Shown: piece after piece, positions 25,116-45,000 of the stretch
Layout: the number at the start of each line of letters is the position of its first letter
Position numbering within the stretch: the first letter of the stretch is position 1
Notes under the pieces: generated by a model
The model's database searches: none
What the model was told of the DNA's origin: nothing
What the model saw: the letters and a program-made list of their open reading frames with translations, nothing else
Made by a program: the position numbers and the translations under genes
From: Ovis canadensis
Lineage: Eukaryota; Chordata; Mammalia; Artiodactyla; Bovidae
Length of the DNA: 64,000 nt
Reading direction: 5' to 3'
NCBI RefSeq assembly: GCF_042477335.2
Contig: NC_091251.1
Coordinates: 84,397,501 to 84,461,500, forward strand

Positions 25116-28102
25116 AATTGTTGTCTTCCACAGTTTATTGTGATCCACACAGTCAAAGGCTTTGGCATAGTCAATAAAGCAGAAATAGATATTTTTCTGG
25201 AACTCTCTTGCTGTTTCGATGATCCAGCAGATGTTGGCAATTTGATCTCTGGTTCCTCTGCCTTTTCTAAAACCAGCTTGAACATCTGGAAGTTCACGGT
25301 TCACATACTACTGAAGCCTGGCTTGGAGAATTTTGAGCATTACTTTACTAGCGTGTGAGATGAGCACAATTGTGCAGTAGTTTGAGCATTCTTTGGCATT
25401 GCCTTTCTTTGGGATTGGAATGAAAACTGACCTTTTCCAGTCCTGTGGCCACTGCTGAGTTTTCCAAATTCGCTGGCATAGTGAGTGCAGCACTTTCACA
25501 GCATCATCTTCCAGGATTTGAAATAGCTCAACTGGATTTCCATCACCTCCACTAGCTTTGTTCGTAGTGATGCTTTCTAAGGCCCACTTGACTTCACATT
25601 CCAGGATGTCGGGCTCTAGGTGAGTGATCACACCATCGTGATTATCTTGGTCATGAAGATTTTTTTTGTACAGTTCTTCTGTGTATTCTTGCCACCTCTT
25701 CTTAATATCTTCTGCTTCTGTTAGGTCCATACCATTTCTGCCCTTTATTGAGCCCATCTTTGCATGAAATGTTCCCTTGGTGTCTCTAATTTTCTTGAAG
25801 AGATCTCTAGTCTTTCCCATTCTGTTGTTTTCCTCTATTTCTTGGCATTGATTGCTGAGGAAGGCTTTCTTATCGCTCCTTGCTATTCTTTGGAACTCTG
25901 CACTCAGATGCTTATATCCTTCCTTTTTGCTTCTCTTCTTTTCACAGATATTTGTAAGGCATTCTCAGACAGCCATATTGCTTTTTTTGTATTTCTTTTC
26001 CATGAGGATGATCTTGATCCCTGTCTCCTGTACAGTGTCACGAATCTTCATCCATAGTTCATCAGGCACTCTGTCTATCAGATCTAGTCCCTTAAATCTA
26101 TTTCTCACTTCCACTGTATAATCATAAGGGATTTGACTTAGGTCATACCTGAATGGTCTAGTGGTTTTCCCTTCAATTTAAGCCTGGATTTGACAATATG
26201 GAGTTTATGATCTGAACCACAGTCAGCTCCCGGTCTTGTTTTTGCTGACTGTATAGAGCTTCTCCATCTTTGGCTGCAAAGAATATAATCAATCTGATTT
26301 TGGTGTTGACCATCTGGTGATGTCTATTTGTAGAGTCTTCTCTTGTGATGTTGGAAGAGGGTGTTTGCTATGACCAGTGCGTTCTCTTGGCAAAATTCTA
26401 TTAGCCTTTGCCCTGCTTCATTCCATACTCCAAGGCCAAATTTGCCTGTTACTCTAGTTGTTTCTTGACTTCCAACTTTTGCATTCCAGTCCCCTGTAAT
26501 GAAAAGGACATCTTTTTGGGGTGTTAGTTCTAAAAGGTCTTGTAAGTCTTCATAGACCGTTCAACATCAGCTTCTTCAGTGTTGCTGGTTGGGGCATAGG
26601 CTTGGATATGCAGGTCAGGAAGCAACAGTTAGAACTGGACATGGAACAACAGACTGTTTCCAAATAGGAAAAGGAGTACGTCAAGGCTGTATATTGTCAC
26701 CTTGCTTATTTAACTTATATGCAGAGTACATCATGCGAAACGCTGGGCTGGAAGAAGCACAAGCTGGAATCAAGATTGCTGGGAGAAATATCAATAACCT
26801 CAGATATGCGATGACACCACCCTTATGGCAGAAAGTGAAGAGGAGCTATAAAGCCTCTTGATGTAGGTGAAAGAGGAGATGAAAAAATTGGCTTAAAGCT
26901 CAACATTCAGAAAACGAGGATCATGGCATCTGGTCCCATCACTTCATGGGAAATAGATGGGGAAACAGTGGAAACAGTGGCAGACTTTACATTTTTGGGC
27001 TCCAAAATCACTGCAGATGGTGACTGCAGCCATGAATGTAAAAGACGCTTACTCCTTGGAAGAAAAGCTATGACCAACCTAGATAGCATATTCAAAAGCA
27101 GAGACATTACTTTGCCGACTAAGGAGCGTCTAGTCAAGGCTATGGTTTTTCCTGTGGTCATGTATGGATGTGAGGGTTGGACTGTGAAGAAAGCTGAGTG
27201 CCAAAGAATTGATGCTTTTGAACTGTGGTGTTGGAGAAGACTCTTGAGAGTCCCTTGGACTGCAAGGAGATCCAACCAGTCCATTCTGAAGGAGATCAAC
27301 CCTGGGATTTCTTTGGAAGGAATGATGCTAAAGCTGAAGCTCTGGTACTTTGGCCACCTCATGCGAAGAGTTGACTCATAGGAAAAGACTCTGATGCTGG
27401 GAGGGATTGGGGGCAGGAGGAGAAGGGGACGACCGAGGATGAGATGGCTGGATGGCATCACGGACTCGATGGATGTGAGTCTGAGTGAACTCCGGGAGAT
27501 GGTGATGAATAGGGAGGAGTGGCGTGCTGCGATTCATGGGGTCACAAAGAGTCGGACACGACTGAGCGACTGAACTGAACTGAACTGAGATAATATATTA
27601 AAAAGCAGAGACATTACTTTGCCAACAAAGGTCCATCTAGTGAAGGCTATGGTTTTTCCAGTTTTCATGTGTGGATGTGAGAGTTGGACTGTCAAGAATA
27701 CTAAGTGCCAAAGAACTGATGCTTTTGGACTGTGGTGTTGGAGAAGACTCTTGAGAGTCCCTTGGACTGCAAGGAGATCCAACCAGTCCATTCTAAAGGA
27801 GATCAGTCCTGGGTATTCATTGGAAGGACTGATGCTGAAGCTGAAACTCCTATACTTTGTCCACCTGATGTGAAGAGTTGACTCATTGGAGAAGACTCTG
27901 ATGCTGGGAGGGATTGGGGGCAGGAGGAGAAGGGGATGACAGAGGATGAGACGGGTGGATGGCATCACCAACTCGATGGACATGAGTTTGGGTAAACTCT
28001 GGGAGTTGGTGATGGACAGGGAGGCCTGGCATGCTGCAATTCATGGGGTCGCAAAGAGTCGGACATGACTGAGTGACTGAACTGAACTGAATTGTTGTCT
28101 TC
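25116..28102 (+). mobile_element. Composite BovB insertion: inverted 5' part, sense 3' part, second sense 3' part, single 13-bp target duplication
   Basis: AATTGTTGTCTTC at 25116-25128 and 28090-28102 bounds the whole unit. Segment 1 (25129 to about 26602) is BovB in reverse orientation, covering endonuclease (GDWNAKVGSQET, QIDYILCSQRW on the minus strand) and the first part of the reverse transcriptase. Segment 2 (about 26605-27588) is BovB in sense orientation from just past motif A to the 3' end. Segment 3 (27589-28089) is another sense BovB 3' end of a different sequence variant. The inverted and sense parts together lack about 58 nt of BovB, judged against the copy at 38880-41194. Segment 2 has one base missing inside the catalytic YADD codons (near 26808), so it is dead. 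Confidence 0.9.
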
Positions 28103-30543: not shown

Positions 30544-31960
30544 TTTTGTTGTTCAGTCACTTAGTCATATCTGTGACCCCATGGACTGTAGAACACCAGG
30601 CCTCCCTGACCTTCGCCACTCCTGGAATTTACTCAAACTCATGTCCACTGAGTTGGTGATGCCATTCAACCATCTCGTCCTCTGTCATCCCTGTCTCCTC
30701 CCACCTTCAATCTTTCCTAGAATCATGGTCTTTTGCAAAGAGTCTGCTCTTCTTATCAGATAGCCAAAGTATTGAAGCTTCAGCTTCAACATCAGTCTTT
30801 CCAATGAATGTTCAGGATTGATTTCCTTTATGACTGACTGGTTTGATCTCCTTCCAGTCCATGGGACTCTTAAGAGTCTTCTCCAACACTACAGTTCAAA
30901 AGCATCAATTCTTTGGCATTTAGCCTTCTTTATGGTCACTTCTCACATCTCTACACGACTATTGGAAAAACCATAGCTTTGACTATACAGACCTTTGTTG
31001 GCAAAGTAATGTCTCTGCTTTTTAATACTCTGTCTAGGTTTGTCATAGCTTTTCTGCCAAGGAGCAAGTGTCTTTTAATTCTACGGCTGTGGTCACCATC
31101 TGCAGTGATTTTGGAACCCAAGAAAATAAAGTCTGTCACTATTTCTATTGTTTCCCCATCTATTTGCCATGAATTGATGGGACTAGATCCCATGATCTTA
31201 GTTTTTTGAATGTTGAGTTTTAAGCCAGCTTTTTCACTCTCCTCTTTAGTTCCTCTTCACTTTCTGCTGTAGGGTGGTGTCATCTGCATGAATGAGATTA
31301 TTGATATTTCTCCTGGCAGTCTTGGTTCCAGTTTGTGCTTCATCCAACCTGGCATTTCACATGAGGTACTATGCACAGAAATTAAATTAACAGGGTGACA
31401 ATATACAGCCTTGACGTACTCCTTTTCTAAGTTGGAACCAGTCCATTGTTCCATGTCCAGTTCTAACTGTTGCTTCTTGTCATGCATACAGGTTTCTCAG
31501 GAGGCAGGTAAGGTGATCTGGTAGTCCCATCTCTTTAAGAATTTTCCACAGTTTGTTGTGATCTACACAGTCAAAGGCTTTAGCATAATCTAGCATAATC
31601 AATAAAGCAGAGTGAGTGAAGTCGCTCAGTCGTGTCCGACTCTTTGTGACCCCATGGACTGTAGCCTACCAAGCTCCTCTGTCCGTGGGATTTTCCAAGC
31701 AATAGTACTGGAGTGGATTGCCATTTCCTTCTCCAGGGGATCTTCCTGACCCAGGGATCGAACCCGGGTCTCCCGCATTGTAGACAGATGCTTTACCGTC
31801 TGAGCCACCAGAAGTAGATGTTTTTCTAAAATTCTCTAGATTTTTCTATGATCTAGAGGATGTTGGCAATTTGATCTCTGGCTCCTCTGCCTTTTCTAAA
31901 TCCAGCTTGTATGTCTGGAAGTTTTTGTTCACCTACTGTTGAAGCCTAGCTTGAAGGATT
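30544..31960 (-). mobile_element. BovB LINE, antisense, split by a Bov-tA
   Basis: The element covers the 3' end back to the reverse transcriptase. On the minus strand the catalytic region reads HADD instead of YADD (near 31290), so it is inactivated. A Bov-tA at 31610-31811 interrupts it. A 10-nt tandem duplication (TAGCATAATC) lies near 31581-31600. A possible short target duplication TGATTT lies at 30540-30545 and 31962-31967. Confidence 0.88.
31610..31813 (-). mobile_element. Bov-tA SINE inside BovB, antisense
   Basis: GTCGCTCAGTCGTGTCCGAC, TACTGGAGTGGATTGCC, GATCGAACCCGGGTCTCC and GAGCCACCAG are well conserved, with CpGs retained, suggesting a fairly recent copy. It interrupts BovB between ATAAAGCAG and AAGTAGATG. 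Confidence 0.92.
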
Positions 31961-31969
31961 TTGATTTAT

Positions 31970-35771: not shown

Positions 35772-36488
35772 CTGATAGTATCAGCTCAGTTCAGTCGCTC
35801 AGTTGTGTCTGACTCTGTGACCCCATGGACTACAGCATGCCAGGCCTCCGTGTCCATCACCAACTTCTGGAGTTTACTCAAACTCATGTCCATTGAGTCT
35901 GTGATGCCATCCAACCATCTCGTCCTCTGTTGTCCCCTTCTCCTGCCTTTAATCTTTCCCAGCATCAGGGTCTTTTCAAATGAGTCAGCTCTTTGCATCA
36001 GGTGGACAAAGTATTGGAGTTTCAGCCTCAACATCAGTCCTTCCAATGAACACCCAGGACTGATCTTCTTTAGGATGGACCAGTTGGATCTCCTTGCAGT
36101 CCAAGGGACTCTCAAGATTCTTCTCCAACACCACAATTCAAAAGCATCAATTCTTTGGCGCTCAGCTTTCTTTATAGTCCAACTCTCACATCCATACATG
36201 ACTACTGGAAAAACCATAGCCTTGACTAGACAGATCTTTGTTGAAAAAGTAATGTCTCTGCTTTTTAACATGCTGTCTAGGTTGGTCATAACTTTCCTTC
36301 CAAGGAGTAAGCGTCTTTTTATTTCATGGCTGCAGTCACCATGCAGAATCACCATGCAGTGATTTTGGAGCCCAAGAAAATAAAGTCTGCCACTGTTTCC
36401 ACTGTTTCCCCATCTATTTGCCATGAAGTGATGGGACTGGATGCCATGATCTTTGTTTTCTGAATGTTGAGCTTTAAGCTAATAGTAT
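35772..36488 (-). mobile_element. BovB 3' part, antisense, with approx. 10-bp target duplication
   Basis: The body 35782-36478 runs from the BovB terminus (AGCTCAGTTCAGTCGCTCAG) to a 5' truncation at GAGCTTTAAGC. CTGATAGTAT (35772-35781) and CTAATAGTAT (36479-36488) flank it with one mismatch. A 12-nt partial repetition of the CACCATGCAG region lies near 36339-36360. Confidence 0.88.
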
Positions 36489-37546
36489 TTCTGTTCAGTT
36501 GCTCAGTCGTGTCCGACTCTTTGCGACCCCATGAATCACAGCACGCCAGGCCTCCCTGTTCATCACCAACTCCCGGAGTTCACTCAGACTCACATCCATC
36601 GAGTCAGTGATGCTATCTAGCCATCTCATCCTCTGTCATCCCCTTCTCCTCCTGCCCCCAATCCCTCCCAGCATCAGAGTCTTTTCCTATGAGTCAACTC
36701 TTCGCATGAGGTGGCCAAAGTACTGAAGCTTCAGCTTTAGCATCATTCCTTCCAAAGAAATCCCAGGGCTGATCTCCTTCAGAATGGACTGGACTGGTTG
36801 GATCTCCTTGCAGTCCAAGGGACTCTCAAGAGTCTTCTCCAACACCACAGTTCAACAGCATCAGTTCTTTGGTGCTCAGCCTTCTTCACAGTCCAACTCT
36901 CACATGCATACATGACCACAGGAAAAACCATAGCCTTGACTAGACGGATCTTAGTCAGCAAAGTAATGTCTCTGCTTTTGAATATGCTATCTAGATTGGT
37001 CATAACTTTTCTTCCAAGGAGTAAGTGTCTTTTAATTTCATGGCTGCAGTCACCATCTGCAGTGATTTTGGAGCCCCCCAAAAATAAAGTCTGCCACTGT
37101 TTCCACTGTTTCCCCATCTATTTCCCATGAGATGATGGAACTGGATGCCATGATCTTTGTTTTCTGAATGTTGAGCTTTAAGCCAACTTTTTCACTCTCT
37201 TCTTTCACTTTCATCAAGAGGCTTTTTAGTTCCTCTTCACTTTCTGCCATAAGGGTGCTGTTATCTGCATATCTGAGGTTATTGATATTTTTCCCGGCAA
37301 TCTTGATTCCAGCTTGTGTTTCTTCCAGTTCAGTGTTTCTCATGATGCACTCTGCATAGAAGTTAAATAAGCAAGGTAACACTATACAGCATTGATGTAC
37401 TCCTTTTCCTATTTGGAACCAGTCTATTTTCCATGTCCAGTTCTAACTGTTGCTTCCTGACCTGCATACAGATTTCTCAAGAGGCAGGTCAGGTGGTCTG
37501 GTATTCCCATCTATTTCAGAATTTTCCACAGTTTATTGTATAGTAT
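36482..37546 (-). mobile_element. BovB 3' half, antisense, adjoining the previous copy
   Basis: The body 36489-37539 is a separate BovB from the terminus (TTCAGTTGCTCAGTCGTGTC) to the reverse transcriptase. Its catalytic region reads YADN instead of YADD on the minus strand (near 37258-37270). ATAGTAT at 36482-36488 and 37540-37546 is its 7-bp target duplication. The same heptamer at 35775-35781 is the third copy of the site. Confidence 0.85.
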
Positions 37547-38870: not shown

Positions 38871-41203
38871 AATATTCCAAGAGAATGCACTGGTCATAGA
38901 GACACCCTCTTCCAACAACACAAGAGAAGACTGTGCACATAGACATCATCAGATGGTCAACACCAAAATCAGATTGATTATATTCTTTGCAGCCAAAGAT
39001 GGAGAAGCTGTATACAGTCAGCAAAAACAAGACCGGGAGCTGACTGCGGCTCAGATCCTAAACTCCTTATTGCCAAATTCAGGCTTAAATTGAAGAAAGT
39101 AGGGAAAACTGCTAGACCATTCAGGTATGACCTAAATCAAATCCCTTATGATTATACAGTGGAAGTGACAAATAGATTTAAGGGACTAGATCTGCTAGAC
39201 AAAGTGCCTGATGAACTATGGATGGAGGTTCATGACATTGTACAGGAGACAGGAATCAAGACCATCCCCATGGAAAAGAAATGCAAAAAAGCAAAATGGC
39301 TGACTGGGGAGGCCTTACAAATAACTGTGAAAAGAAGAGAAGTGAAAAGCAAAGGAGAAAAGGAAAGATACAAGCATCTGAATGCAGATTTCCAAAGAAT
39401 AGCAAGGAGAGATAAGAAAGCCTTCCTCAGTGATCAATGCAAAGGAATAGAGGAAAAGAACAGAATGGGAAAGACTAGAGATCTCCTTAAGAAAATCAGA
39501 GATACCCAGGAAACATTTCATGCAAAGATGGGCTCAATAAAGGACAGATATGGTATGGATCTAACAGAAGCAGAAGATATTAAGAAGAGGTGGCAAGAAT
39601 ACACAGAAGAACTACACAAAAATGTCTTCACAACCAAGATAATCACAATGGTGTGATCACTCACCTAGAGCCTGACATCCTGGAATGTGAAGTCAGATGG
39701 GCCTTAGAAAGCATCACTATGAACAAAGCTAGTGGAGGTGATAGAATTCCAGTTGAGCTATTTCAAATCCTGGAAGATGACACTGTGAAAGTGCTGCACT
39801 CAATATGCCAGCAAGTTTGGAAAACTCAGCAGTGGCCACAAGACTGGAAAGGGTCTGTTTTCATTCCAATCCCAAAGAAAGGCAATGCCAAAGAATGCTC
39901 AAACTATCACACAATTGCACTCATCTCACATGCTAGTAAAGTAATGCTCAAAATTCTCCAAGCCAGGCTTCAGCAATACATGAACCATGAACTTCCAGAT
40001 GTTCAAGCTGGTTTTAGAAAAGGCAGAGGAACCAGAGATCAAATTGCCAAAATTGGCTGGATCATTGAAACAGCAAGAGAGTTCCAGAAAAACATCTATT
40101 CCTGCTTTATTGACTATGCCAAAGCCTTTGACTGTGTGGATCACAATAAACTGTGGAAAATTCTGAGAGAGATGGGAATACCTGACCACCTGACCTGCCT
40201 CTTGAGAAACCTCTATGCAGGTCAGGAAGCAACAGTTAGAACTGGACATGGAAAACAGACTGGTTCCAAATAGGAAAAGGAGTACATCAAGACTGTATAT
40301 TGTCACCCTGCTTATTTAACTTCTATGCAGAGTACATCATGAGAAACGCTGGACTGGAAGAAGCACAACCTGGAATCAAGACTGCCGGGAGAAATATCAA
40401 TAACCTCAGATATGCAGATGACACCACTCTTATGGCAGAAAGTGAAGAGGAACTAAAACGCCTCTTGATGAAAGTGAAAGAGGAGAGTGAAAAAGTTGGC
40501 ATAAAGCTCAACATTCAGGAAACTAACATCATGGCATCTGGTCTCATCACTTCATGGGAAATAGATGGGGAAACAATGGAAACAGTGTCAGACTTTATTT
40601 TTGGGGGCTCCAAAATCACTGGAGATGGTGATTGCAGCCATGAAATTAAAAGACGCTTACTCCTTGGAAGGAAAGTTATGACCAACCTAGATAGCATATT
40701 CAAAAGCCGAGACATTACTTTGTCAGCAAAGGTCCATCTAGTCAAGGTTATGGTTTTTCCTGTGGTCATGTATGGATGTGAGCATTGGACTGTGAAGAAA
40801 GCTGATCGCTGAAGAATTGATGCTTTTGAATTGTGGTGTTAGAAAACTCTTGAGAGTCCCTTGGACTGCAAGGAGATCCAACCAGTCCTTCCTAAAGGAG
40901 ATCAGTCCTGAGTGTTCATTGGAAGGACTGATGCTGAATCTGAAAGTCCAATACTTTTGGCCACCTCATGTGACGAGTTGACTCATTTGAAAAGACCCTG
41001 ATGCTGGGAGGGATTGAGGGCTGGAGGAGAAGGGGACGACAGAGGATGAGATGGCTGGATGGCATCACTGACTCGATGGACATGAGTTTGGGTAAACTCC
41101 GGGTGTCGGTGATGGACACAGAGGTCTGGTGTGCTGGGATTCATGGGATCGCAAAGAGTCGGACACAACTGGTCTACTGAACTGAACCGAACTGAATATT
41201 CCA
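38871..41203 (+). mobile_element. BovB LINE inserted into L1, sense, 9-bp target duplication
   Basis: The body 38880-41194 is 2.3 kb and 5'-truncated within the endonuclease. AATATTCCA at 38871-38879 and 41195-41203 is a perfect target duplication within L1 ORF2. Sense orientation is opposite to the host L1. The 3' end has the usual TCGCAAAGAGTCGGACACAA followed by ACTGAAC repeats. Confidence 0.95.
39000..41000 (+). pseudogene. BovB reverse transcriptase remnant with intact YADD but broken frame
   Basis: Three overlapping frames are needed: 39090-39656, 39590-40273 and 40300-40812. Motifs in order are KVPDELWMEVHD, NKASGGDRIPVELFQ, SVFIPIPKKGNAKECSNY, GFRKGRGTRDQ, DYAKAFDCVDHNK (motif A), and RYADDTTLMAESEEE (motif C, catalytic aspartates intact). 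Frameshifts lie near 39640 and 40250. An in-frame TGA at 40810-40812 replaces what is CGA in related copies, consistent with CpG decay. Confidence 0.9.
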
Positions 41204-42013: not shown

Positions 42014-45000
42014 ATGAGCTGCTTGTATATTTTGGAAATTAATCCTTTGTCAGTTGTTTCATTTGGTATTATTTTCTCCCATTGTGAGGGTTATCTTTTC
42101 ACCTTGCTTATAGTTTCCTTTGCTGTGCAAAAGCTTTTAAGTTTAATCAGGTCCAAGTTGTTTACTTATGTTTTTATGTCCATTATTCTAGGAGGTGGGT
42201 CATAGAGGATCTTGCTTTGATTTATGTCATTGAGTGTTCTGCCTATGTTTTCCCCTAAGAGTATTATAGTTTCCTGTCTTACCTGTAGGTCTTTAATCCA
42301 TCTTGAGTTTATCTTTGTATATGGTGTTAGGAAGTATTCTAATTTCATTCTTTTACATGTAATTGTCCAGTTTTCCCAGCACCATTTATTAAAGAGGCTG
42401 TCTTTGCCCCATTGTATATTCTTGCCTCCTCTGTCAAATATAAGGTACCCATAGGTGCATGGGTTTATTCCTGGGCTTTCTATCTTATTCCATTGGTCTA
42501 TATTTTTGTTTTTGTGCCAGTACCATACTGTCTTGATGACTGTAGCTTTGTAGTATAATCTGAAGTCCGGAAGGTTGATTCTTCCAGCTCCATTCTTCTT
42601 TCAAGACTGCTTTAGCTATTCGGGATCTTTGGTGTTTCCATTTGTATTGTGAGTTTTTTTTTTATAGTTCTGTGTAAATTGTGATTCGTAATTTGTAAGG
42701 ATCTCATTGAATCTGTAGATTGCGTTTGGTAGTATAATCATTTTCAGTATATTGATTCTTCCTACCCAGGAGCATGGAACATCTCACCATCTCTTTATGT
42801 CGTCTTTGATTTCTTTCATTAGTGTCTTATAATTTTCTGTGTACAGTTCTTTTGTCTCCTTAGGTAAGTTTATTCCTAGATATTTAATTCTTTTTGTTGC
42901 AGTAGTGAATAGGATTGATTCCTTAATTTCTCTTTCTGGTTTTTCATTGTTAGTATATAGAAATGCAAGTGATTTCTGTGTATTTATTTTGTATCCTTCA
43001 ACTTTGCTATATTCACTGATAAGCTCTAGTAATTTTCTGATACTATCTTTAGGGTTTTCTATGTAGAGTATCATGTCATCTGCAAACAAAGAGAGCTTCT
43101 TTTCAATCTGGATTCCATTTATTTCTTTTTCTTCTTCGATTGCTGTAGCTAGGACTTTCAGAACTATGTTGAATAATAGTGGGGAAAGTGAGCACCCTTG
43201 TCTTGTTTCTGATCTTCGGAGGAAAGCTTTCAGTTTTTCACCTTTGAGAATAATGTTTGCTATTGGCTTATCATATATGGCCTTTACTATGTTGAGGTAG
43301 GTCCCGTCTATGCCCATTTTTTGAAGAGTTTTAATCATAAATGGGTGCTGAATTTTGTCAAAGGCTTTTCCTGCATCTATTGAGATGATCATATGGTTTT
43401 TATCTTTCAATTTGTTAATACGGTGTATCACATTGATTGATTTGTGTATATTGAAGAATCCTTGCATTCCTGGAATAAACCCAATTTGATCATGGTGTAT
43501 GAGCTTTTTGATGTATTGCTGAATTCTGTTTGCTAAAATTTTGTAGAGGATTTTTGTAGCCTTGTTCATCAGTGATATTGGCTTGTAGTTTTCTTTTTTT
43601 GTGTTGTCTTTGTCTGGTTTTGGTATCAGAGTGATGGTGACCTTGTAGAATGAGTTTGGAAGTGTTCCTTCCTCTGCAATTTTTTGAAAGAGTTTTAGAA
43701 GGATAGGCATTAGCTCTTCTTGAAATGTTTGATAGAATTCTCCTGTGAAGCCATCTGGTCCTGGGCTTTTGTTTTTTGGGAGAATTTTGATCACAGCTTC
43801 AATTTCAGTGCTTGTAATTGGGTTGTTCATAATTTCTATTTCTTCCTGGTTCAGTCTTGGAAGTTTGAACTTTTCTGAGGATCTGTCCATTTCTTCCAGG
43901 TTATCCATTTTATTTCCATGTAGTTGCTCATAATAGTCTGTTATAATCCTCTGTAATTCTGCATTGCCTGTTGTAACCTCTCCTTTTTCATTTCTAGTTT
44001 TGTAGATTTGATTCTTCTCTCTTTTCTTCTGTAAGAGTCTGGCCAAAGGTTAGTCAATTTTGTTTATGTTCTCAAAGAACCAGCTTTTAGTTTTATTAAT
44101 CTTTACTATTTTATCTTTCATTTCTTTTTCATTTATTTCTGCTTGGATCTTTATGATTTCTTTCCTTCTACTAATTTTGGCTATTTTTTGTTGTTGTTTT
44201 AGGTATAAAGTTAGGTTGTCTATTTGATGTTTTTCTTGTTTCTTGAGGTAGGATTGTATCACTATAAAGTTCCTTTTTAGAACTGCTTTTGCTGCATCCC
44301 ATAGGTTTTGAGTTGTCCTATTTTCATTGTCATTTGTTTCTAGAAATTTTTTGATTTCCCTTTTGACTTCTTCAGTGACCTGTTGGTTATTTAGAAATGT
44401 ATTGCTTAATCTCCATGTGTTTGTGTTTCTTACAGTTTTTTTTCTTGTAATTGATATCTAGTTTCATAGCATTGTGGTCAGAGAATATGCTTGATTTCAA
44501 CTTTCTTAAATTTACTGAGGTTTGATTTGTGACCCAAGATGTGGTCTATCCTGGAGAATGTTCCATGTGCACTTGAGAAGAAGGTATATTCTTCTGCATT
44601 TGGATGGAATGTCCTGAAGATATCAATGAGATCTATTTCATGTAATGTATTATTTAAAACTTGTGTTTCCTTATTAATTTTCTGTTTTGATGATATGTCC
44701 ATTGGTGTGAGTGGGATGTTAAAGTCTCCTACTATTATTGTGTTACTGTCAATTTCTCCTTTTATGTCTGTTAGTGTTTGTCTTATGTACTGAGGTGCTC
44801 TTATGTTGGGTGCACAGATATTTATAATTGTTATGTCTTCCTCTTGGATTGATCCCTTGATCATTATATATTGTCCTTCCTTATCTCTTGTAATCTTCTT
44901 TATTTTAAGGTCTATTTTGTCTAATATGAGGATCACTACTCCAGCTTTCTTTTGCTTCCCATATGCATGGAATATATTTTTCTATCCTCTCACTTTCAGT

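Follow-up and report, generated by a model that had tools for sequence, protein, structure and literature searches.

Two BovB 3′ ends within one target site duplication in Ovis canadensis: probable nesting of BovB in BovB

At positions 25116–28102 of a 64,000-nucleotide stretch of Ovis canadensis DNA (the window), a single direct repeat encloses an inverted BovB segment and two successive sense BovB 3′ ends. How did one insertion acquire two tails? The initial annotation proposed that reverse transcriptase began on one BovB RNA, jumped onto another at its 3′ end, and then underwent twin priming. Our analysis upholds the twin priming. It lends no support to a jump between RNAs, because the genome carries the same join at 61 places and this join lies at a T/A nick-type site (slashes within sequences mark the step between two nucleotides). 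The two BovB units were probably brought together in DNA, through the action of the BovB endonuclease, and not between RNAs by reverse transcriptase.

Structure of the insertion

The three annotated BovB segments are all present, and the repeat that bounds them is perfect, with 13/13 nt identical (Table 1). Positions within BovB are given relative to a reference copy at 38880–41197 of the same window. The repeat occurs only at the two ends of the insertion and not at the join between units A and B. When breakpoint pairs were drawn at random in the window, an exact repeat of 13–15 was found in 96 of 2,000,000 draws. To the left of 25129 lies the duplication, followed by sequence without a nearby BovB match.

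Table 1. Features of the BovB insertion; positions are those of the window
Feature	Position	Strand	Remarks
Left target site duplication copy	25116..25128	+	AATTGTTGTCTTC; T before it (GCCT/AATTG)
Inverted 5′ part of younger BovB	25129..26608	-	Reference ~1276 to past the reference's 5′ end
Sense 3′ part of younger BovB (unit A)	26607..27587	+	Reference ~1335–2316; tail is CTGAACTGAACTG
Join of A tail and B	27587..27588	+	Intact BovB here is ACCT/AGATAG, T/A step
Unit B, second BovB 3′ end	27588..28089	+	Reference 1810–2315, different subfamily
Right target site duplication copy	28090..28102	+	AATTGTTGTCTTC, 13/13 identical to left copy

The inversion of the younger element was produced by twin priming. 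This is well supported by the inversion itself, by the loss of sequence at the break and by the few nucleotides shared at each of the two joins. Between the antisense and sense parts, BovB lacks about 57 nt, as counted on the copies compared (∼58 nt in the initial annotation). The antisense/sense break at 26607/26608 has a 2-nt overlap (TA), and the left edge of the insertion shares TTC with the target. The locus thus has the features of a twin-primed LINE: an antisense 5′ part abutting a sense 3′ part, a single outer duplication and short overlaps. For L1, 5′ inversion is attributed to twin priming (PMC2912911), and the annotated likeness of the break to that signature holds. A limited literature search found no published account of either twin priming or template jumping by BovB.

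Unit A runs into unit B with zero filler. The join can be placed at 27588/27589, as annotated, or equally at 27587/27588, one A being ambiguous. The two 3′ ends do belong to different subfamilies: at 22 subfamily sites, A carries 22 young-type states and B carries 8. The absence of a duplication at the inner join was also correctly noted, the 13-mer being present in two copies only, but the conclusion drawn from it, that the locus cannot be two ordinary insertions, does not follow.

The join lies at an endonuclease-type site

Intact BovB reads AAGTTATGACCAACCT/AGATAGCATATT at the join, and the tail of A meets B precisely at the T/A step of ACCT/AGATAG. According to section 3.2 of a study of a blind snake, the first base in 108 of 123 Bov-B duplications is an A that follows a T, ∼10 nt below a run of Ts (PMC13295347); the same T-then-A pattern is also seen in cattle (PMC13295347). 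The join fits this published nick pattern, and a T likewise precedes the first A of the outer duplication.

This placement bears on the proposed jump, in which reverse transcriptase would copy one BovB RNA as far as reference 1810, switch end to end onto another BovB RNA at its 3′ terminus, and twin-prime afterwards. The single 13-bp duplication around the whole, with neither filler nor inner duplication, is what such a jump would leave. Yet the join is not away from endonuclease sites, as would befit a jump, but at a T/A step common to plain nested insertions. A jump free as to position would land there by chance alone, there being 19 TA steps in the 718 nt of reference 1601–2318.

The same join recurs across the genome

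A 31-base pattern over the join was searched in the genome holding the window (2.97 Gb, 42 contigs). With up to 3 mismatches allowed, it matched at 61 places, including the window, where the match is exact; the reversed pattern gave 0 matches in the same genome. Letters were seen for all 61 matches, and 60 of them start with intact CTGAACTG.

Control patterns were placed at other steps. At a non-TA step 15 nt away (A/A), there were 24 matches, with a BovB tail in only 1 of the 19 whose letters were seen. This argues against a template jump, although the sole tail joins 4 nt further, at G/A, itself a non-TA step, and the five unread matches might hold true joins. A second T/A site gave 22 pattern matches, counted without their letters, versus 24 at the non-TA control, so no general T/A excess is established. 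Another control pattern, with 17,319 matches, was set aside because ordinary BovB lies within 3 mismatches of it. BovB being abundant, one ordinary favoured site may gather dozens of joins genome-wide, and we claim no exceptional hot spot.

We examined 14 other copies, a non-random choice consisting of 12 from the head of the 61-match list together with L010 and L011; L011 is one of the 61 matches, whereas L010 has more mismatches and lies outside them. In seven of the 14 (L010, L053, L054, L059, L061, L062 and L063), older host BovB extends up to the site, a younger copy follows, and the host then resumes. Judged from their sequences, these are plain nesting of BovB in older BovB. Three copies (L011, L056 and L057) resemble the window, with no host visible on the younger element's left side, and four (L052, L055, L058 and L060) were placed in neither class.

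A clear inner duplication is found in only three of the seven plainly nested copies, namely L059 (∼11 nt, two mismatches), L061 (∼7 nt) and L063 (∼13 nt). That of L053 is ≤2 nt, and a few nucleotides are lost in L010, L054 and L062. In L063, the host at the left amounts to only ∼9 nt, as judged by eye, and an outer 10-nt host duplication surrounds both units. The outer repeat of L057 is weak, and none is visible in L056. The flanks of L011 align continuously to a related copy at 44345–44580 of the window (∼70% identity, with gaps of ∼8 nt at the join).

Recurrence also raises the question of a single chimeric, two-tailed BovB family that multiplies as such, and the 61 copies of the join would agree with one. 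In the initial annotation, many copies of the same two-tailed arrangement were to mean a chimeric source element and not a jump at this locus. The arrangement is indeed found at 61 places, but as what appear to be separate nested insertions. A tree of the second tails, which took the nine of sufficient length, scatters them over several positions ranging from old clades to young ones, albeit with many weak forks. Moreover, in the seven nested copies the younger unit begins at different places within the host, its start differing in BovB position in most of them. The scattered second tails largely refute a chimeric family, and we regard this explanation as highly improbable.

The left unit is of the younger type

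Compared at the subfamily sites that both units cover, the left unit is richer in young-type states in 14/14 testable pairs, window included; the pairs share 1 to 22 sites, L060 was left out, and the differences are very small for L054, L062 and L063. This order is predicted by later insertion into older hosts. It is not predicted by a jump between RNAs present together.

Private divergence is less discriminating. It amounts to 29/499 in B versus 99/2227 in the rest of the insertion (57/1256 in the inverted part, 22/472 in the left half of A and 20/499 in its right half), and by this measure B does not appear clearly older than the rest. The similar values for A (20/499) and B (29/499) would suit a template jump. 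Taking the evidence together, we consider it unlikely that the locus is a single integration in which an RNA-to-RNA jump hit the T/A step by chance and twin priming followed.

Loss of CpGs was considered as proof of B's greater age and dropped. B keeps 3 of 11 CpGs and six copies of the same subfamily keep 3–5 of 11; set beside these copies, its loss is typical of its subfamily.

The subfamily states also suggested a mosaic. Here the original insertion would comprise the inverted part, the left half of A and B; a younger 3′ piece would have entered at the T/A site and had its 5′ end joined to the host at the same BovB position, where the target overhang would match the incoming cDNA. Such in-register joining seemed likely at first, since GG, the window's state left of the site at reference 1474/1484, is carried by 13/19 other-type versus 1/22 young-type copies in a sample. 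It lost ground with the genome-wide count: GG left of the site combined with young-type states right of it occurs in 1288 exact copies (versus 5786 with AA) and is thus a common haplotype. The window's C at reference 785, for its part, is also found in 5/14 copies with young states at 1846/1849. The alike private divergence of the inverted part and the two halves of A likewise speaks against a later replacement, and we give this mosaic very little credence.

Two routes by which nesting could yield the locus

Nesting of BovB in BovB is favoured because the join recurs at 61 places, because seven of the 14 copies are plainly nested, because the join falls at a T/A site, and because the left unit is the younger. 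A younger BovB would insert by target-primed reverse transcription at the T/A step of ACCT/AGATAG in an older BovB, its tail thereby coming to abut the host's final 507 nt, and twin priming would invert its 5′ part. The window itself has neither host BovB at the left nor an inner duplication of the younger copy's own. Since no host BovB lies left of 25129, either the two units arrived together or the host was truncated near the site.

In the first form, nesting would have occurred elsewhere. A transcript of the younger element would have read through into the 3′ remainder of its host, and the resulting A + B RNA would have been inserted here as a unit. In its favour, the insertion's left end coincides exactly with the end of the duplication, and the flanks of L011 are likewise contiguous; read-through of a nested source would account for both without coincidence. 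Counting against it, no source locus for A + B was found among the 40 scored of 4468 candidates, the best other match to B being 93%.

In the second form, nesting would have taken place at this locus, in a host truncated within a few nucleotides of the site, and the host's duplication would now flank A + B. L063 favours it, because there the host is truncated ∼9 nt from the site and its own outer duplication lies around both units. So does the fact that four of the seven nested copies have an inner duplication of ≤2 nt or a small loss. With no host sequence on the left side, however, this form must invoke a coincidence. We tentatively rate the read-through form slightly above nesting in place, which we hold to be possible but rather doubtful.

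Other BovB arrangements

Joins between a BovB tail and sense BovB were noticed three times in the window plus twenty 10-kb stretches. At L028:7200–7797, a BovB tail directly abuts sense BovB, from reference 716. L010:849–4389 has three BovB layers: an old copy received a second copy, which received a younger one at the same T/A site.

Two BovB copies lie head to tail on the minus strand at 35782–37539 (35775–37546 with repeats). ATACTAT occurs three times around this pair (plus-strand ATAGTAT at 35775, 36482 and 37540), which is a plain second insertion that reused the same target site. Unlike this pair, the 25116–28102 locus lacks a middle duplication copy. At 30551–31964, an old minus-strand BovB is interrupted at ∼31620–31809 by a stretch ending in a BovB-like tail, perhaps a BovB-dependent SINE.

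Collections of viral, prokaryote, phage and plasmid sequences contained BovB in one viral contig only. This contig, IMGVR_UViG_3300023220_000993, carries a BovB 3′ end (L001:2063–2526), perhaps host DNA filed as virus.

Discussion

Insertion of BovB into BovB can mimic template jumping. In a BovB-rich genome, two-tailed copies should be compared with endonuclease sites, and the relative age of their units assessed, before they are taken as evidence of a jump. Should the read-through form be correct, the locus would represent BovB 3′ transduction with another BovB as cargo.

In end-to-end jumping by R2, the tail of one template is joined to the internal start of another without filler. The locus looks alike in this respect, with a tail joined to the internal start of another copy and zero filler. 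It differs from R2 jumps in that its join sits at an endonuclease-type site common to nesting in DNA. Such end-to-end template jumping is named for R2 in PMC2912911. Twin-primed L1 insertions match the locus in their antisense 5′ part beside a sense 3′ part, sequence loss at the break, overlaps at both joins and one duplication (PMC2912911). Unlike L1, the element here is a BovB, of the RTE clade, with an ACTGA-type tail and no poly(A).

The read-through form has its counterpart in LINE 3′ transduction. There, read-through carries a downstream stretch along, as it would here. The usual case differs from this one, in which the cargo would be the 3′ end of another BovB and no source locus was found among the 40 scored of 4468 candidates. 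Plain nested BovB-in-BovB copies differ from the locus on its left side, where it has no host, and in that one duplication flanks both its units. They share with it the arrangement that is plain in seven of the 14 copies: the tail of a younger BovB meets the 3′ remainder of an older one at a T/A step.
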